From positions 2,398,001 to 2,462,000 of the forward strand of contig NZ_CP120863.1 in assembly GCF_026191725.2 (NCBI RefSeq): 64,000 bases of DNA, read 5' to 3'. The notes beneath the pieces are model-generated. The model was given only the letters and a program-made list of their open reading frames with translations. It was not told the origin of the DNA and did no database searches. The stretch comes from Roseibium porphyridii. GTDB taxonomy: Bacteria; Pseudomonadota; Alphaproteobacteria; Rhizobiales; Stappiaceae. A program made the translations under genes and the position numbers. This document shows positions 4,427-10,065 of this stretch, piece by piece (position 1 is the first letter of the stretch; each line of letters opens with the position of its first letter).

Positions 4427-5125
4427 TCAGGCAGGCTGGAAGCGGTAGCGGCCGGTAATCCGGTACGAAAAAAGCCGATCTTCCAGCTTGGTTCCTGAGC
4501 CGATGTTGTGAACGAGCATTGGCCGTTGACCGTCGGGCGATTTGCGGTGCGTGACAATTGCCATGTGCGGTAGATTGCCCGGTAGCAATTGCGACACGAT
4601 ATCGCCGGGCAGATAGTCTCTCGGGTCGTCGCTAACAGGAAGCCCGGCGCCTTTCCGGGTGAAAAAGGTCTGCAGGTTGGGAACACGGCGATGGTCGATG
4701 TTTTTGTCCGGCCGTTTCAGACCCCAGTTTTGCGGATAGGCGCTGAAATGGTTCTTCATGTCCACGTTGACTTCACGTTGAAGATCAAAGTCGAACGCAT
4801 CGCGGTAGGCGCGGACGATAACGTCCGTGCAGACACCACGTTCCCGCGGAATGTCTCCGTTGGGGAAGGTCAGCCCGACATAGCCGGGGTCGTAGAGTAC
4901 GGTGACGCCGATCTGGTCTTCTGCCGCGGTTATCAGTTCTTCCGCCCAGGAATCGGGATTTTTCCAGATGATGTCCGTGGAAGACTGATCGCCGCTCAAT
5001 GCGTTCAGTTTTACTGAACCAGATGCGCCGTCCGTGCCGAGTTTTTGTGCCGGAACGCGAGAGGCCGCCAACAGACCGCCGCCTGCAAGCACCAAACCAC
5101 CAACCAGAAAACTCCGCCGTTTCAT
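4427..5125 (-). CDS. DUF1287 domain protein, exported
   Basis: The protein has 232 residues and an N-terminal export signal beginning MKRRSFLVGG, a twin-arginine-like start followed by a hydrophobic stretch. The body matches what I know of DUF1287, an NlpC/P60-like fold: RGVCTDVIVRAYR (likely nucleophile Cys99), DHRRVPNLQTFF (about 144-155), GDIV, LPHMAIVTH (His187) and a late VHNIG. A role as periplasmic amidase/peptidase on cell-wall material would fit the fold but is not established. GGGAG lies five bases before the ATG. It converges on the subtilase gene with 3 bases between the stops. Confidence 0.8.
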   Translation of the reverse strand: MKRRSFLVGGLVLAGGGLLAASRVPAQKLGTDGASGSVKLNALSGDQSSTDIIWKNPDSWAEELITAAEDQIGVTVLYDPGYVGLTFPNGDIPRERGVCTDVIVRAYRDAFDFDLQREVNVDMKNHFSAYPQNWGLKRPDKNIDHRRVPNLQTFFTRKGAGLPVSDDPRDYLPGDIVSQLLPGNLPHMAIVTHRKSPDGQRPMLVHNIGSGTKLEDRLFSYRITGRYRFQPA

Positions 5126-5240: not shown

Positions 5241-6464
5241 CTATGAGTTCTTTGGGACTTGCGAGCCCAGTCTTCCCATGAGCGGGCCAAAGCCCAACAG
5301 CCAGTATAAAAATGCGAATGACCAGGACACCGTTGCAAGTCCATGAAAAGGGCCAGGCAAGTCGTATCCAAGGTCTGGTGCAATTCTCAGCAATGCGGAT
5401 AGGCATAAGAAAACAGCACCTGTTTTGACCAGCCAGCTTTGGCCCAATGGATGCCCTGTATGAAGCTTACCTGCGATGCAATAGACCGCGTAAACTCCGA
5501 GACCCAGACCGCCCAGAAATGCAAGGTGAAGTCCGGTGATATCGCTCCAGGGCGCACCAAGCCTCGCGCAGCCGGCAAGTATCAGGCCCACACCGGCAAG
5601 TGCTGAGGACCCGCCCAGCATCAATATTTCGGAATGAAATGTCGCCCGACCAATAAAGGCTTCAGCGACCCTATCCATGAAAGCTGCGCCGGCGGCTAGT
5701 ATCAGAAATCCGGTTACCGCCTGGCTCAGACCAAAGATTTCTCCGGCAAGTGCAACGAATACAAGACCGGGCGCAAGGTGCAGTCGGCCAGGATGTGGCC
5801 GGAAAGGGGAGGTGGCTTCGGTAGGGTCCAGGATGAGGTTTGTGACAGGAACAGTGATCCGGCCAAGGGCGAGGCCCAGCAGTCCGAGAAACGCAAATCC
5901 AACCATGTGAATGGATTTGGTTGCAAGATCCAGCTGACCAGTCAGAAAGCCAAGACGGGCCATTGCGGCACAGGCCAAAAGGATCAGCAGCCAGAATGCG
6001 AAAGACAGCAATCTGTCTGTTCTTTGCCGCCAGGATAATTGCAAGATGTAGATGAGCAGTATCGAAAGCCAACTGACATCGGCGATTGCGCCGATGAGAC
6101 CCAATCCGTCCCACCCCAACAGACCCACAACCCTGCCGATGAACCACAGACCAGCGAGGGCCCATAGGTGCCAGCCTCGTAGGGGCTCGCTGTCTGTCCA
6201 TTCAGGGGCTGCCGTTGTCAGAAAGCCGATCAAGGCAGCACCGAATGCACCTATGAGCATTTCGTGGGCGTGCCAAAGGGAAGGTGGAACAGTTTCTGCA
6301 AGTGGCAGATCGAACTCGAACGCCAGCACCCAGAGCAGTGGCCAAAGAGCTGCATAGGCTGCCCCAAGCGGAAAAAACAGCCGAAACCCTTCGTCCGACA
6401 GGGCGTCCCACCAACGAATACTCCTGCTCTGGTTTCGATTCTGGACAGCAGGGCCGCAGCTCAT
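5241..6464 (-). CDS. nnrS: NnrS family membrane protein
   Basis: This 407-residue polytopic membrane protein (about 12 segments) has the NnrS-type opening FRLFFPLGAAYAALW and the conserved HAHEMLIGAFGAALIGF block (about 67-83), followed by a TAAPEW motif. NnrS proteins are haem- and copper-associated membrane proteins made under nitric-oxide or denitrifying conditions; they protect against NO stress in Vibrio. It is the last gene of the minus-strand operon starting at 9989, and its ATG overlaps the ABC ATPase stop (6461-6464). The FNR/Dnr box ahead of the operon (10052-10065) agrees with low-oxygen or NO control. Confidence 0.88.
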   Translation of the reverse strand: MSCGPAVQNRNQSRSIRWWDALSDEGFRLFFPLGAAYAALWPLLWVLAFEFDLPLAETVPPSLWHAHEMLIGAFGAALIGFLTTAAPEWTDSEPLRGWHLWALAGLWFIGRVVGLLGWDGLGLIGAIADVSWLSILLIYILQLSWRQRTDRLLSFAFWLLILLACAAMARLGFLTGQLDLATKSIHMVGFAFLGLLGLALGRITVPVTNLILDPTEATSPFRPHPGRLHLAPGLVFVALAGEIFGLSQAVTGFLILAAGAAFMDRVAEAFIGRATFHSEILMLGGSSALAGVGLILAGCARLGAPWSDITGLHLAFLGGLGLGVYAVYCIAGKLHTGHPLGQSWLVKTGAVFLCLSALLRIAPDLGYDLPGPFHGLATVSWSFAFLYWLLGFGPLMGRLGSQVPKNS

Positions 6465-7210
6465 GCAATCTGCCTTTCGTCAACATCATGAATGTGCCGG
6501 AACAGCGGGTCTTCTTTCAAAGCAGATTGCACCCATTTGAAGATAGTGACGTCGTCGCGTTCTTGTGGTGGCAAGGGAAATGAACGGATGCCCAGAACTC
6601 CGTGTCCATGGCTATCCAGGACCGCAATTCGGTCCGCCAGGCGAGCGGCCTCCTGCAGATCGTGCGTGATGAACAATCCTGAGAGTTGACCGCCCGCGCA
6701 GGTGTTGATCACCAAGTCCTGCATGCGCCTGCGCAGCGCGACGTCGAGCGCCGTAAACGGTTCGTCGAAGTAGATGAAATCGGGGTTTGTTGCCAACGCC
6801 CGTGCGATGGCGACGCGCTGTTTCATCCCGCCTGACAGCTCAACCGGATACTTTCTCAGGTCCTCAGAAAACAGTGCGACGCGTTCTGCGGCGACGGCAA
6901 CTTTTTCTCTGCGTTCTCCGCGTTTCACACCGGCAATTTGCAGGGAATAAGCGATGTTTTGAGCAGCTGTTGCCCAAGGCAACAACGACGGTTCCTGAAA
7001 GATCATTGAATGGCGGCGATAGCGCCGATCAATTTTCCCTGCCCGGGGTTCGACAAGATCTGCAGCGATGTGTGCGAGCGTCGATTTTCCGCAACCGGAA
7101 GGTCCAACCAGAGCGACTATTTCTCGCTCCTCAATTTCGAGATGGATATTTTCAAGAACGGTCCGACCCAGATATGCGTGTCCGATATCTTGAAGGCTCA
7201 AGGCACTCAT
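6461..7210 (-). CDS. ABC transporter ATPase, NitT/TauT type
   Basis: The protein has 249 residues, with Walker A GPSGCGKS (36-43), Q-loop region FQEPSLLPW (71-79), signature LSGGM (125-129), Walker B FIYFDE (145-150) and switch His183. Sequence style and length fit the SsuB/TauB/NrtD group that powers import of sulfonates, nitrate, pyrimidine precursors or similar anions. The ATG at 7210 overlaps the permease stop (ATGA), and the gene's own stop overlaps nnrS, so translation of the three genes is probably coupled. The substrate cannot be read from the ATPase. Confidence 0.92.
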   Translation of the reverse strand: MSALSLQDIGHAYLGRTVLENIHLEIEEREIVALVGPSGCGKSTLAHIAADLVEPRAGKIDRRYRRHSMIFQEPSLLPWATAAQNIAYSLQIAGVKRGERREKVAVAAERVALFSEDLRKYPVELSGGMKQRVAIARALATNPDFIYFDEPFTALDVALRRRMQDLVINTCAGGQLSGLFITHDLQEAARLADRIAVLDSHGHGVLGIRSFPLPPQERDDVTIFKWVQSALKEDPLFRHIHDVDERQIA

Positions 7211-8037
7211 CGTTTGATACCCCACGGTTGCGCTGCCCGGCGCCAACGGTCGATCTCGCCCTTAACCGGGTGGATCAATGAGTATTCCACGACGATCAAC
7301 AGTCCCACCGCAACAACCACCCAGGCAAGAGCCGTTGCAATATCAAGATTGATCCGTGCGTCTGCCAATGCGCCGCCAATGCCACCGGCATTGGCCAACA
7401 GTTCGGCCATCACGGCGACTTTGAAGGAGGTCCCGAGCGCAAGCGCGAGGGCGGGAAAGAGCGTTGTCGTGGTCTGGCGCAGGCCGACGGACAAAAACCG
7501 ACTTATTGGTCCTGCCCCAAAGGCTTTGGCCATCCGATCCAACCCGCGATCACGTGTTGAAATGCCGCTTGCCGCACCCAGGAAGACCACGGGTAAGGCA
7601 GCCACAAGAATTACAACGCGAACAGTCGCATCGGAGCCGCCGAACCAGATCATGGCAAGGACGATCCAGGCGATGGGAGGTACCCCGAGAATGACGGTGA
7701 TCAAAGGCGAAGCAATTCGCATTGTTGCCGGTGAATAGCCGGCAGAAATCCCCAGAAGACAGCCTGTCAGAGCGACCAGGACGAACCCGGTTAATGCGCG
7801 CTGAAGTGTGAGCAATGCGATGCCCCAGGCGTTCCGATCCTGCGCCAGTTTCCCGATTGCCTGGAGTGTTTCCAAAGGTGAGGTGAGAATAAATGGACCA
7901 TAGGCCTCATGTCCGATTTGCCAGACTGCAGCCATCAGGCACAGAGCTGCAAAACCGGCCCAACCAGACCACAAGAAATCCAGTACGCGCCCAACCCGGT
8001 CGAGCAATCGCATTGCGAGATTGCCTAGCATATTCAT
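7207..8037 (-). CDS. ABC transporter permease, NitT/TauT type
   Basis: This 276-residue inner-membrane protein has about six hydrophobic segments and the BPD-type cytoplasmic loop with conserved Ala/Gly around residues 180-215 (AKAFGAGPISRFLSVGL). It is the SsuC/TauC-like partner of the ATPase that overlaps its 3' end. The start at 8037 is ATG, with a second ATG two codons later. It follows the binding-protein gene after 63 bases containing an inverted repeat (8051-8093). Confidence 0.9.
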   Translation of the reverse strand: MNMLGNLAMRLLDRVGRVLDFLWSGWAGFAALCLMAAVWQIGHEAYGPFILTSPLETLQAIGKLAQDRNAWGIALLTLQRALTGFVLVALTGCLLGISAGYSPATMRIASPLITVILGVPPIAWIVLAMIWFGGSDATVRVVILVAALPVVFLGAASGISTRDRGLDRMAKAFGAGPISRFLSVGLRQTTTTLFPALALALGTSFKVAVMAELLANAGGIGGALADARINLDIATALAWVVVAVGLLIVVEYSLIHPVKGEIDRWRRAAQPWGIKR

Positions 8038-8050
8038 GCCTTGTTGTATT

Positions 8051-8093
8051 GCCTGTCGCAGACCTGCCGAACGTGTGAGGCCATCCGACAGGC
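8051..8093 (-). promoter_or_regulatory. Inverted repeat between binding-protein and permease genes
   Basis: GCCTGTCG (8051-8058) pairs with CGACAGGC (8086-8093) around a 27-base loop, inside the 63-base gap between the two cistrons. There is no T-run, so a mRNA-stabilising or attenuating hairpin is more likely than a full terminator. Comparable repeats sit at the same place in two other transporter operons of this window. Confidence 0.45.
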
Positions 8094-8100
8094 CCGTAGG

Positions 8101-9096
8101 TCATGTGTAGAACTTGTTGTCGGGAAGCTTGCCGCCAATGCGGGCCATGTCCTTGCCTGCCATTGCTTTCAACATGCGTTCTATGTCCGCGCGAGCCTCG
8201 ACAGCGTTTCGTGCAACGAGATTGCAATGCGGAACCGATGCGGCAAGCAAAGGTGCCGGCAATCCGAGTGCTCCGGTCGCCTGTTCAGCAGCCTTGCCCG
8301 GATCTTCTAGGACTTCGCTGGTGGCGGTTCTGAGCACTTTGAGAATGTCTGGAATCATTTCCGATCCCGTCTCCATAAATGCTCCCGTCACTGCAAGACC
8401 TGCTTGGGGCAGAACAGGCGCAGCATCCGTCATCTCGCCCCAGGCGTCCTGGATATTGATGACCCGTGCGATTTTCTTGCCCGCCTTGCGTCCGCGCAGG
8501 ATGCCGGCGGTTGTTGACGGCTCTGCAGTCAGGGCCGCTTCGACCTTACCTGCCAATAGCAATTGCATGGCTTCGATTGGCGACCCGGCATATGTGATTT
8601 GCAGGTCTTCTTCAGCGTTTAGCCCTGCATGCGATACAAGCTGGCCAAAGATGATTTCCGGTGTGTCACCGCGAAACGGTACGGCAATACTTCTTCCCTT
8701 GAGGTCTGAGATCGACTTAATTTCGGGAGCTTCGCTGATGATGTAGAGCAACCCATCAGTCATAATATTTGCAAGTCGGATCGGAAAGCCGCGATTGTAG
8801 AGATTTGCGGCGGCCTGTACCGGGACAACCGACAATCCAATGCTGCCCGACGTCAGCCCTGCGCGAAGTTCGTCCGGGTTACGCCAGGCCGTGAAAGTTG
8901 CATTTGCGGCCAATGCGCTGAAACCTCCACTCGCGACCGCATGGGCAAGAGTTACGGAAGGCCCTGCCGGAGGTCCAAACAGGGCAAGAGTGTCAGTTTT
9001 GTCCGCCAATGTCAGGGATGGAAGCAACGGTGTTGCAGCTCCGCCTGCCAGAAGAGAGAGCGCGGATCGCCGAGTCAAATCATGGATCTTGCTCAT
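8101..9096 (-). CDS. ABC substrate-binding protein, NitT/TauT type
   Basis: The protein has 331 residues and an N-terminal signal containing TRRSALSLL and a hydrophobic run to about residue 31, consistent with export, perhaps by Tat. The body has the NMT1/SsuA-like layout, including SISDLKGRSIAVPFRGDTPE (about 128-147) and AGKVEAALTAEPST. It should bind a small ligand in the periplasm and deliver it to the permease at 7207-8037. The ligand is unknown. The ATG at 9096 overlaps the cupin stop. Placement between a secreted cupin and NnrS suggests a ligand relevant to low-oxygen or NO metabolism, which is inference only. Confidence 0.88.
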   Translation of the reverse strand: MSKIHDLTRRSALSLLAGGAATPLLPSLTLADKTDTLALFGPPAGPSVTLAHAVASGGFSALAANATFTAWRNPDELRAGLTSGSIGLSVVPVQAAANLYNRGFPIRLANIMTDGLLYIISEAPEIKSISDLKGRSIAVPFRGDTPEIIFGQLVSHAGLNAEEDLQITYAGSPIEAMQLLLAGKVEAALTAEPSTTAGILRGRKAGKKIARVINIQDAWGEMTDAAPVLPQAGLAVTGAFMETGSEMIPDILKVLRTATSEVLEDPGKAAEQATGALGLPAPLLAASVPHCNLVARNAVEARADIERMLKAMAGKDMARIGGKLPDNKFYT

Positions 9097-9524
9097 TTCA
9101 TCTGCTCCAGAATTGCAGGGACGGGTTTTTCGTCATCAAGGACAACAAGCTGGACACGGAGCGCACCACTGCGGGCGGCGAGCCAATGATCCACTCCTGA
9201 AGGGATCGTCAGCAGGCTGCCAGCGGGATAAACGGTTTCTTTTTCCACATCGATCGCGCTTCCATCACCCCAGGACAACTCACCTGAAAGAACGGTCAAT
9301 AGCCGTAGCCCACTCTTGGCCGCGTGCGGGGGTACGACATCTCCTTTGTCCAGATCCAGAAGAACGACGGCAGGGGTACCTTCTGACGTAACAGCGAGCG
9401 GTGTCAGCTGTGCAACGTCATAGACCTCCTTGGATGGAAGTTTTTCAGTTGCTATCAGAGTTGTTTCGGCGGCTGCCGCCGTGAAAAACGATGCAAGCAG
9501 CAACGAAGTCAGAAGCAATCTCAT
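9093..9524 (-). CDS. Secreted cupin-domain protein
   Basis: The protein has 143 residues: a cleavable signal peptide (about 1-19, ending AAAAE), then a single cupin barrel with PPHAAKSGLRLLTVLSGELSW (about 64-84) and PAGSLLTIPSGVDHW (about 100-114). His66 and His113 are the visible candidate metal ligands, fewer than in a classic cupin. A periplasmic binding or sensing role, or a small-molecule enzyme, is possible. It is translationally coupled (4-base overlap) to the ABC binding protein, so the two may act on the same compound. Confidence 0.8.
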   Translation of the reverse strand: MRLLLTSLLLASFFTAAAAETTLIATEKLPSKEVYDVAQLTPLAVTSEGTPAVVLLDLDKGDVVPPHAAKSGLRLLTVLSGELSWGDGSAIDVEKETVYPAGSLLTIPSGVDHWLAARSGALRVQLVVLDDEKPVPAILEQMK

Positions 9525-9593
9525 GAGATTTCCCTTTCTATTTCGCTTCGAGAGCGGATTTGTTTCTGGCTTGCGAGAGGCTGGCTAAGGACG

Positions 9594-9989
9594 TCAAACA
9601 GCAGTTCCTGGTCTGCTGAGAATGAAGAGTGAAGCAGCAGCAATGGCGACTGCCTGGATCACGAGAACTGTCGGAGAGGCGTTCAAGATAACACTGAGCG
9701 TAAGAAGACTCGCCATCATGCCGATTGATACGACTTTGTATCGAAGCGCTATTGCACCGTTTCGACGCCAATCCAGGATGATCGGCCCAAACACGGCGTT
9801 GGTCTCAAGTATGTCCTGCAGATATGGAGAGCTTTTTCCGAAGGCAAAAGCAGCCAGGATAACAAAAGGTGTGGTTGGTAAAACCGGCAAGAAAGTTCCA
9901 ATTGCACCTATCAGAAGCGATACGACACCGATGCCTATCCACACAGCCCGTTTGGCTGCCGGTGCAAGATTTTTGAGAATGCTTTTCAA
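9594..9989 (-). CDS. YbaN/DUF454 family inner-membrane protein
   Basis: The 131-residue protein has the DUF454 pattern GIGVVSLLIGAIGTFLPVLPTTPFVILAAFAF (about 18-47), then SSPYLQDIL, DWRRNGAI and C-terminal hydrophobic helices. Its function is unknown, although the family often occurs in FNR/Anr-regulated loci beside haem or NO functions. The reading frame begins with TTG at 9989 (no ATG is available), preceded by a GAGAG-type site. It is the first gene of the six-gene operon, and an FNR/Dnr box is centred about 69 bases upstream. Confidence 0.82.
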   Translation of the reverse strand: MKSILKNLAPAAKRAVWIGIGVVSLLIGAIGTFLPVLPTTPFVILAAFAFGKSSPYLQDILETNAVFGPIILDWRRNGAIALRYKVVSIGMMASLLTLSVILNASPTVLVIQAVAIAAASLFILSRPGTAV

Positions 9990-10051
9990 AGCGGACTCTC
10001 TTTAACTGGAGTTTAATATTCAGGTTTTAACTGACCAGTCACCGGCTGCAC

Positions 10052-10065
10052 TTGATTTTTATCAA
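10052..10065 (-). promoter_or_regulatory. FNR/Dnr-type binding site
   Basis: TTGAT-TTTT-ATCAA is a perfect match to the FNR/Anr/Dnr consensus TTGAT-N4-ATCAA. If it works from -41.5 on the minus strand, transcription would begin near 10017, about 28 bases before the first codon of the DUF454 gene. That predicts activation of the operon 9989-5241 (including nnrS) when oxygen is low or NO is present. The site is symmetrical, so it could also act to the right. Confidence 0.8.

Follow-up and report, generated by a model that had tools for sequence, protein, structure and literature searches.

A NitT/TauT-type import module with its own group of NnrS in a Crp/Fnr-site-associated operon of Roseibium porphyridii

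NnrS is present in several nitric oxide (NO)-responsive regulons in the excerpts of PMC1274295 used here. In extracts of Dufour et al. 2010 (PMC2908626) a table calls it haem- and copper-containing, and the predicted alphaproteobacterial DNR regulon includes NnrS, a U32 peptidase and a putative lipid carrier. The system described here is an operon of Roseibium porphyridii that couples nnrS to an ATP-binding cassette (ABC) importer of the NitT/TauT type. It lies in a stretch of 64,000 nucleotides (the window), whose numbering is used below. The SsuABC, TauABC and NrtABC importers have the same domains and fold, but the window system scores under every listed substrate-specific cut-off and has NnrS as a partner. 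The best structural neighbour of its binding protein with a named ligand is PqqT (9b1u, 9b1v, 9ooz), although the identity is about 21% and the likeness is one of fold. The closest solved relative is 3hn0, a Parabacteroides binding protein with no ligand named (profile E 7e-30, shared motifs). Canonical free NnrS shares family PF05940 with the window protein, as well as residues H65, H313, H335 and R360, but stands on the opposite side of a tree branch with support 100/99, and its five conserved residues are absent from most transporter-linked proteins. No paper naming a linkage of NnrS to a transporter was found by titles and abstract starts, and the excerpted passages of PMC1274295, PMC9409073, PMC5398030, PMC6769254, PMC8610252, PMC6710368, PMC2908626 and PMC4417242 do not describe one. 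What looks new is the unexpected partner of a NitT/TauT-type importer, in an apparent regulon of nitrogen-oxide respiration.

The six genes are all on the minus strand, in the order DUF454, cupin, binding protein, permease, ATPase and NnrS (from sequence and Pfam), behind a Crp/Fnr-type palindrome:

10052..10065, no strand, FNR/Dnr/FixK-type palindrome TTGATTTTTATCAA, an exact TTGAT-N4-ATCAA and the sole exact match in the window
9594..9989, minus strand, DUF454 small membrane protein that opens the operon, with a TTG start (PF04304, 109.8 bits)
9093..9524, minus strand, cupin with an apparent signal peptide, judged by eye (Cupin_2, 25.4 bits, just below the cut-off of 27.2)
8101..9096, minus strand, periplasmic binding protein of the NitT/TauT fold (NMT1; AlphaFold2 model with a predicted local distance difference test score, pLDDT, of 91.2)
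7207..8037, minus strand, ABC permease (PF00528, 62.1 bits)
6461..7210, minus strand, ABC ATPase (PF00005, 99.7 bits), with ATGA overlaps with both permease and NnrS
5241..6464, minus strand, NnrS of the transporter-linked group (PF05940, 246.7 bits; tree split 100/99; group residues)

An NMT1-type binding protein, a BPD permease and an ABC ATPase are thus encoded in one operon, and the NnrS score compares with a PF05940 gathering score of 28. An earlier note on this DNA had the genes and coordinates right and needed correction only in its four ATGA overlaps. Three 4-base overlaps were counted (cupin/binding protein, permease/ATPase and ATPase/NnrS), with gaps of 69 bases between DUF454 and cupin and 63 bases between binding protein and permease. 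The note's exact palindrome was confirmed, centred some 69 bases ahead of the DUF454 start codon (TTG), so that an FNR/Dnr consensus site stands at a promoter-like distance. A DUF1287 gene (4427-5125, minus strand) lies 115 bases downstream of NnrS; it was found elsewhere only in the near-identical locus L003 and is left out of the import system.

The recurrent unit is a four-gene core of binding protein, permease, ATPase and NnrS, though not everywhere, and the emphasis moves from the six-gene operon to this import module with its own NnrS group. All six genes were found in the near-identical locus of Labrenzia sp. THAF82, whose binding protein is 99% identical to that of the window. Three other Roseibium/Labrenzia loci (L004-L006) have the four core genes in all cases and DUF454 in two of three; no cupin was found in them. 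DUF454 also precedes the binding protein in L003, L004, L006 and L040. The six-gene order, which the earlier note expected to be conserved, is local, and the cupin and DUF454 are optional across loci. In the order sample a relative of the binding protein occurs in 28 of 297 genomes, and NnrS stands with the transporter in 10 (in one of these, L041, inside the open frame of the ATPase). The phylum-wide sample (398 genomes, 10 with a match) gave nine further loci from eight genomes, six of them with NnrS. A plasmid collection held 62 records with a match; among the 16 examined, NnrS directly follows the ATPase in 12 and, in a 13th (an unannotated Neisseria gonorrhoeae record), comes after intervening genes. 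The permease-ATPase-NnrS order with a binding protein was seen in Paracoccus, Martelella, Azospirillum, Cereibacter, Agrobacterium, Chelatococcus, Bartonella, Rhizobium, Shinella, Sulfurimonas, Arcobacter and Nitratiruptor. The core spans Alpha- and Epsilonproteobacteria, and the Neisseria version has genes between. The binding-protein gene is divergent in Sulfurimonas, and a receptor gene lies inside the group in Azospirillum.

NnrS falls into two groups. A tree of the NnrS proteins from the sampled loci, with 19 further ones taken from the order sample, separates 32 transporter-linked from 28 free rows by one branch (support 100/99; present in 100% of 200 bootstrap trees). The tree is unrooted, five linked labels were set by hand, biochemically studied NnrS proteins are not among its rows, and the window and L003, like L084 and L086, are near-copies that do not count as independent. 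Where two NnrS genes stand in tandem (L042, L044, L046, L071, L084, L086 and L072, the last with its tandem label set by hand), the copy at the ATPase belongs to the linked group and the other to the free group. Residues kept in both groups (linked; free; window numbering) are H65 (31/32; 28/28), H313 and H335 (all) and R360 (32; 27). H183, H298, M337, M342 and R344 (numbering of the L038 fragment) occur in 25, 26, 26, 28 and 28 of the 28 free rows and in 2, 0, 1, 4 and 0 of the 32 linked rows; the window protein has R, G, G, Y and I at these positions and lies outside the free group both on the tree and by residues. E88 and N209 (window numbering) are found in 27 and 28 of the 32 linked rows, compared with 0 and 2 of the 28 free rows. 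The coupling of importer and NnrS proposed in the earlier note is stronger than its author could know, since the linked and the free proteins part on a single branch. Three conserved histidines are candidate ligands in a candidate haem-copper protein; no solved structural relative of NnrS was found. In locus L041 (6594-8261, minus strand) a single open frame joins the ATPase (residues 1-198) to NnrS (residues 95-404), both cut at the junction; it is an in-frame fusion or deletion product.

The palindrome belongs to a site class that is real in this genome, since TTGAYN4RTCAA occurs at 38 places and the reversed-pattern control at 3, which bears out the Crp/Fnr-type box of the earlier note. With up to two mismatches 40 sites were found in the window and 30 were expected; weak palindrome matches therefore carry no meaning. 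A counterpart stands at -69 in L003. In L004 and L006 the site ahead of DUF454 is TTGAC-N4-GTCAA, at -71. The receptor gene of Shinella is preceded at -68 by TTGCGCCAGCGCAA, which fits the NnrR consensus in the excerpts of PMC1274295, and NnrR-dependent genes of Bradyrhizobium have the same site types in an extract of PMC6710368. Of 40 unit starts tested in 29 loci (certain loci entered with two or three possible starts), 12 have a palindrome of this type upstream, compared with 1 of 40 for the reversed pattern and expectations of 1.07 from shuffles and 2.5 from locus density. Crp-type regulators score over the cut-off at five places in the window's genome; FixK and FnrL models score highest for L131 and L132, with no score over their cut-offs.

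One region of the window's genome holds nosZ, a second NnrS, NnrU, UbiD, a U32 peptidase and the haem d1 radical S-adenosylmethionine protein NirJ. Four TTGAYN4RTCAA sites fall within 5.5658-5.5886 Mb, where a free NnrS and a NosR-like gene each have one immediately ahead; these 23 kb also hold UbiD, NnrU, the free NnrS, the NosR-like gene, NosZ and NirJ. Genes near the core at some related loci are, among others, nor, nap, NnrU, nos and those for pseudoazurin and UbiD/UbiX/U32. NosZ is present in 7 of 10 NnrS-linked genomes of the order sample and in 59 of 287 others (one-sided P 0.0014).

With moderate confidence, the operon is read as encoding an import system that serves nitrogen-oxide (denitrifying) respiration, is under Crp/Fnr control and has an NnrS partner of its own. 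Gene conservation, the two NnrS groups and the shared site class, all obtained by computation, are the basis of this reading; what follows on expression, on the kind of ligand, on the barrels' part and on the function of the linked NnrS is inferred. A Crp/Fnr-family activator of the FnrL, FixK or Dnr type would turn the operon on at low oxygen or with NO. The periplasmic binding protein and the NitT/TauT-type ABC importer would form the uptake system, with the linked NnrS as a fixed fourth component. In many relatives a TonB-type outer-membrane barrel would deliver the same ligand, most likely a polar organic cofactor or chelate and not a bare metal ion. The linked NnrS would probably act, in the membrane, on the imported compound or on its redox state.

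Several counts weigh against this reading. No NnrS was found beside the binding-protein relative in 17 of the 28 order-sample genomes (in the remaining one the contig ends too early), in 3 of the 9 phylum-sample loci or in 3 of the 16 examined named records. Within the genus the binding protein is patchy (5 of 45 genomes). NnrS-less genomes that have a relative of the binding protein carry NosZ just as often (10 of 17); NosZ is therefore no mark of the linked set in particular, and its co-occurrence is weakened as a specific link. The palindrome is absent upstream of 28 of the 40 unit starts; the earlier note had asked whether an FNR/Dnr site always accompanies the operon, and the site is enriched without being constant. 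On the unrooted tree one linked row, L089, sits beside the free group (98/91), so that the linked NnrS may be paraphyletic. Near the window's operon eight queries with barrels gave no match, and the receptor of L040 has no match in the window's genome. Of two loci examined among the relatives without NnrS, one (L051, 4698-8624) adjoins an [FeFe] hydrogenase and a glutamate-synthase-like oxidoreductase, and the other, L059 (4980-8949), has genes of the same two clusters.

The structural neighbours of the binding protein are, in order, 3hn0, three PqqT structures with pyrroloquinoline quinone (PQQ), 3un6 with zinc, and SsuA and CmpA; Foldseek gave 3hn0, PqqT, SsuA and Thi5. Among 35 NnrS-linked binding proteins the highest His, Cys or Met column reaches 60%, whereas D75, R78, N110, D144, E192, R211 and W219 are 91-100% conserved, a pattern that favours a polar organic ligand over a bare metal. 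In D. shibae, Dshi_1384, which an extract of PMC5398030 gives as a DnrD-linked 'mineral and organic ion transporter', could not be matched to the homologue P0071 and serves as a lead only.

TonB-type barrels were tallied near 15 of 33 NnrS-linked loci (L040, L042, L043, L044, L046, L070, L072, L073, L077, L078, L081, L085, L088, L089 and L090). Barrel queries and annotations gave none in the other 18, the window included, of which L047 starts just before the binding protein. At least two sorts occur: YncD/PqqU-like barrels with a plug and OprC-like barrels without a detectable one. The latter, beside the binding protein, are apparently plugless barrels of the TonB-receptor type; Pfam finds no plug in L042 (5648-7657), L043 (10255-12216), L044 (14361-16337), L046 (14052-15977) and L094 (7517-9403), and no domain at all in the barrels of L048 and L090. 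In L078 of Neisseria gonorrhoeae (5922-7842) the barrel gene before the binding protein is split over two reading frames.

One alternative names the ligand as PQQ or a similar polycarboxylated quinone, taken up by a YncD/PqqU-like receptor and a PqqT-like binding protein. PqqT is the best structural neighbour with an organic ligand, and PQQ binding of the PqqT type by the window protein is putative, from fold similarity. As a general answer it is unlikely, since neither PQQ alcohol dehydrogenase nor PqqE scored over the cut-off in 14 of 17 tested genomes. Genome G000 has a PQQ-dependent alcohol dehydrogenase (C1, 4187120-4188721) and no PqqE over the cut-off, so it is possibly a PQQ auxotroph.

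A copper or haem/iron chelate, feeding the metal-rich N-oxide reductases and NnrS itself, is likewise a doubtful candidate. In its favour, the OprC/NosA type of copper receptor provides the sole solved relative found for barrels beside some binding-protein relatives (OprC for L042 and L044, E up to 1e-5); haem uptake (L073), iron ABC transport (L071, L081) and FTR1, imelysin and ferritin genes (L079) adjoin some of the named loci; 3un6, the zinc-carrying structure, is the fifth structural neighbour; and NnrS itself is tabulated as haem- and copper-containing in the extract of PMC2908626. However, no His, Cys or Met is well conserved in the binding protein, the OprC-like barrels have no Pfam plug (in excerpted literature the plug forms half of the OprC copper site), and the eight queries placed no barrel near the window's operon. 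A copper receptor as a general answer was rejected: the receptors of L070, L072 and L073 are below the TIGR01778 cut-off, and in a further receptor set TIGR01778 was the best family only for L042 and L044, again under the cut-off. Because PQQ fits some of the data but 14 of 17 genomes fail its markers, the ligand is left between a PQQ-like quinone and a metal chelate. The metal or haem-related compound of the earlier note stays a tentative proposal, with the barrels of the linked loci for it and the barrel-less window operon and PqqT neighbour against it.

That NnrS is a mere co-regulated passenger of an ordinary sulfonate, taurine or nitrate transporter is quite improbable: the three transporter proteins fall in that general family and NnrS is missing beside many binding-protein relatives, two clades of 12 and 6 rows among them, but no NCBIfam taurine, sulfonate or nitrate equivalog or subfamily cut-off was reached (SsuA family 44.4 against 163.5, SsuC 58.7 against 347, NtrB 57 against 209, taurine ATPase 155.4 against 357), and where a free NnrS stands in tandem, the copy at the ATPase still falls in the linked group.

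The cupin is of a narrow family that often travels with the importer, while the importer rarely has a cupin. A protein search gave 110 homologues; in the class sample of 385 genomes the window's own genome alone had it. Matched by the exact length of the longest contig, 27 of the 110 apparently share a genome with a binding-protein homologue among the 120 listed of 1076; a control of 120 Arcobacter-type binding proteins shared 0 with the cupins and 2 with the first binding-protein list. H67, R74, H113, W114 and R118 are invariant across 26 rows, H67 and H113 being two of the classical cupin histidines; solved relatives gave weak matches only. Cupins also adjoin related binding proteins in Diaphorobacter and Paraclostridium, and in Paracoccus the neighbour is a DUF1971 protein, of cupin-like fold. 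TonB receptors flank a large CobN-type chelatase gene of Diaphorobacter (L080, 11551-15588), which lies downstream of binding protein and cupin.

The import system with its dedicated NnrS leads to a wider and more tentative reading, possible though short of probable, that the name NnrS covers two proteins, with one branch as an old, dedicated partner of TonB/ABC uptake of a PQQ-like quinone or metal chelate, under Fnr/Dnr/NnrR/NsrR-type control in nitrogen-oxide respirers. If this were true, part of what is filed as the NO stress response would be cofactor acquisition for anaerobic respiration, and NnrS may in part be an uptake component and not only a stress protein. The tie to the importer provides a handle, as the function of the linked branch would become testable once the imported ligand is found. 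A further suggestion from this tie is that denitrifiers take up a particular compound as they switch to nitrogen oxides, which could bear on when nitrous oxide is left unreduced.

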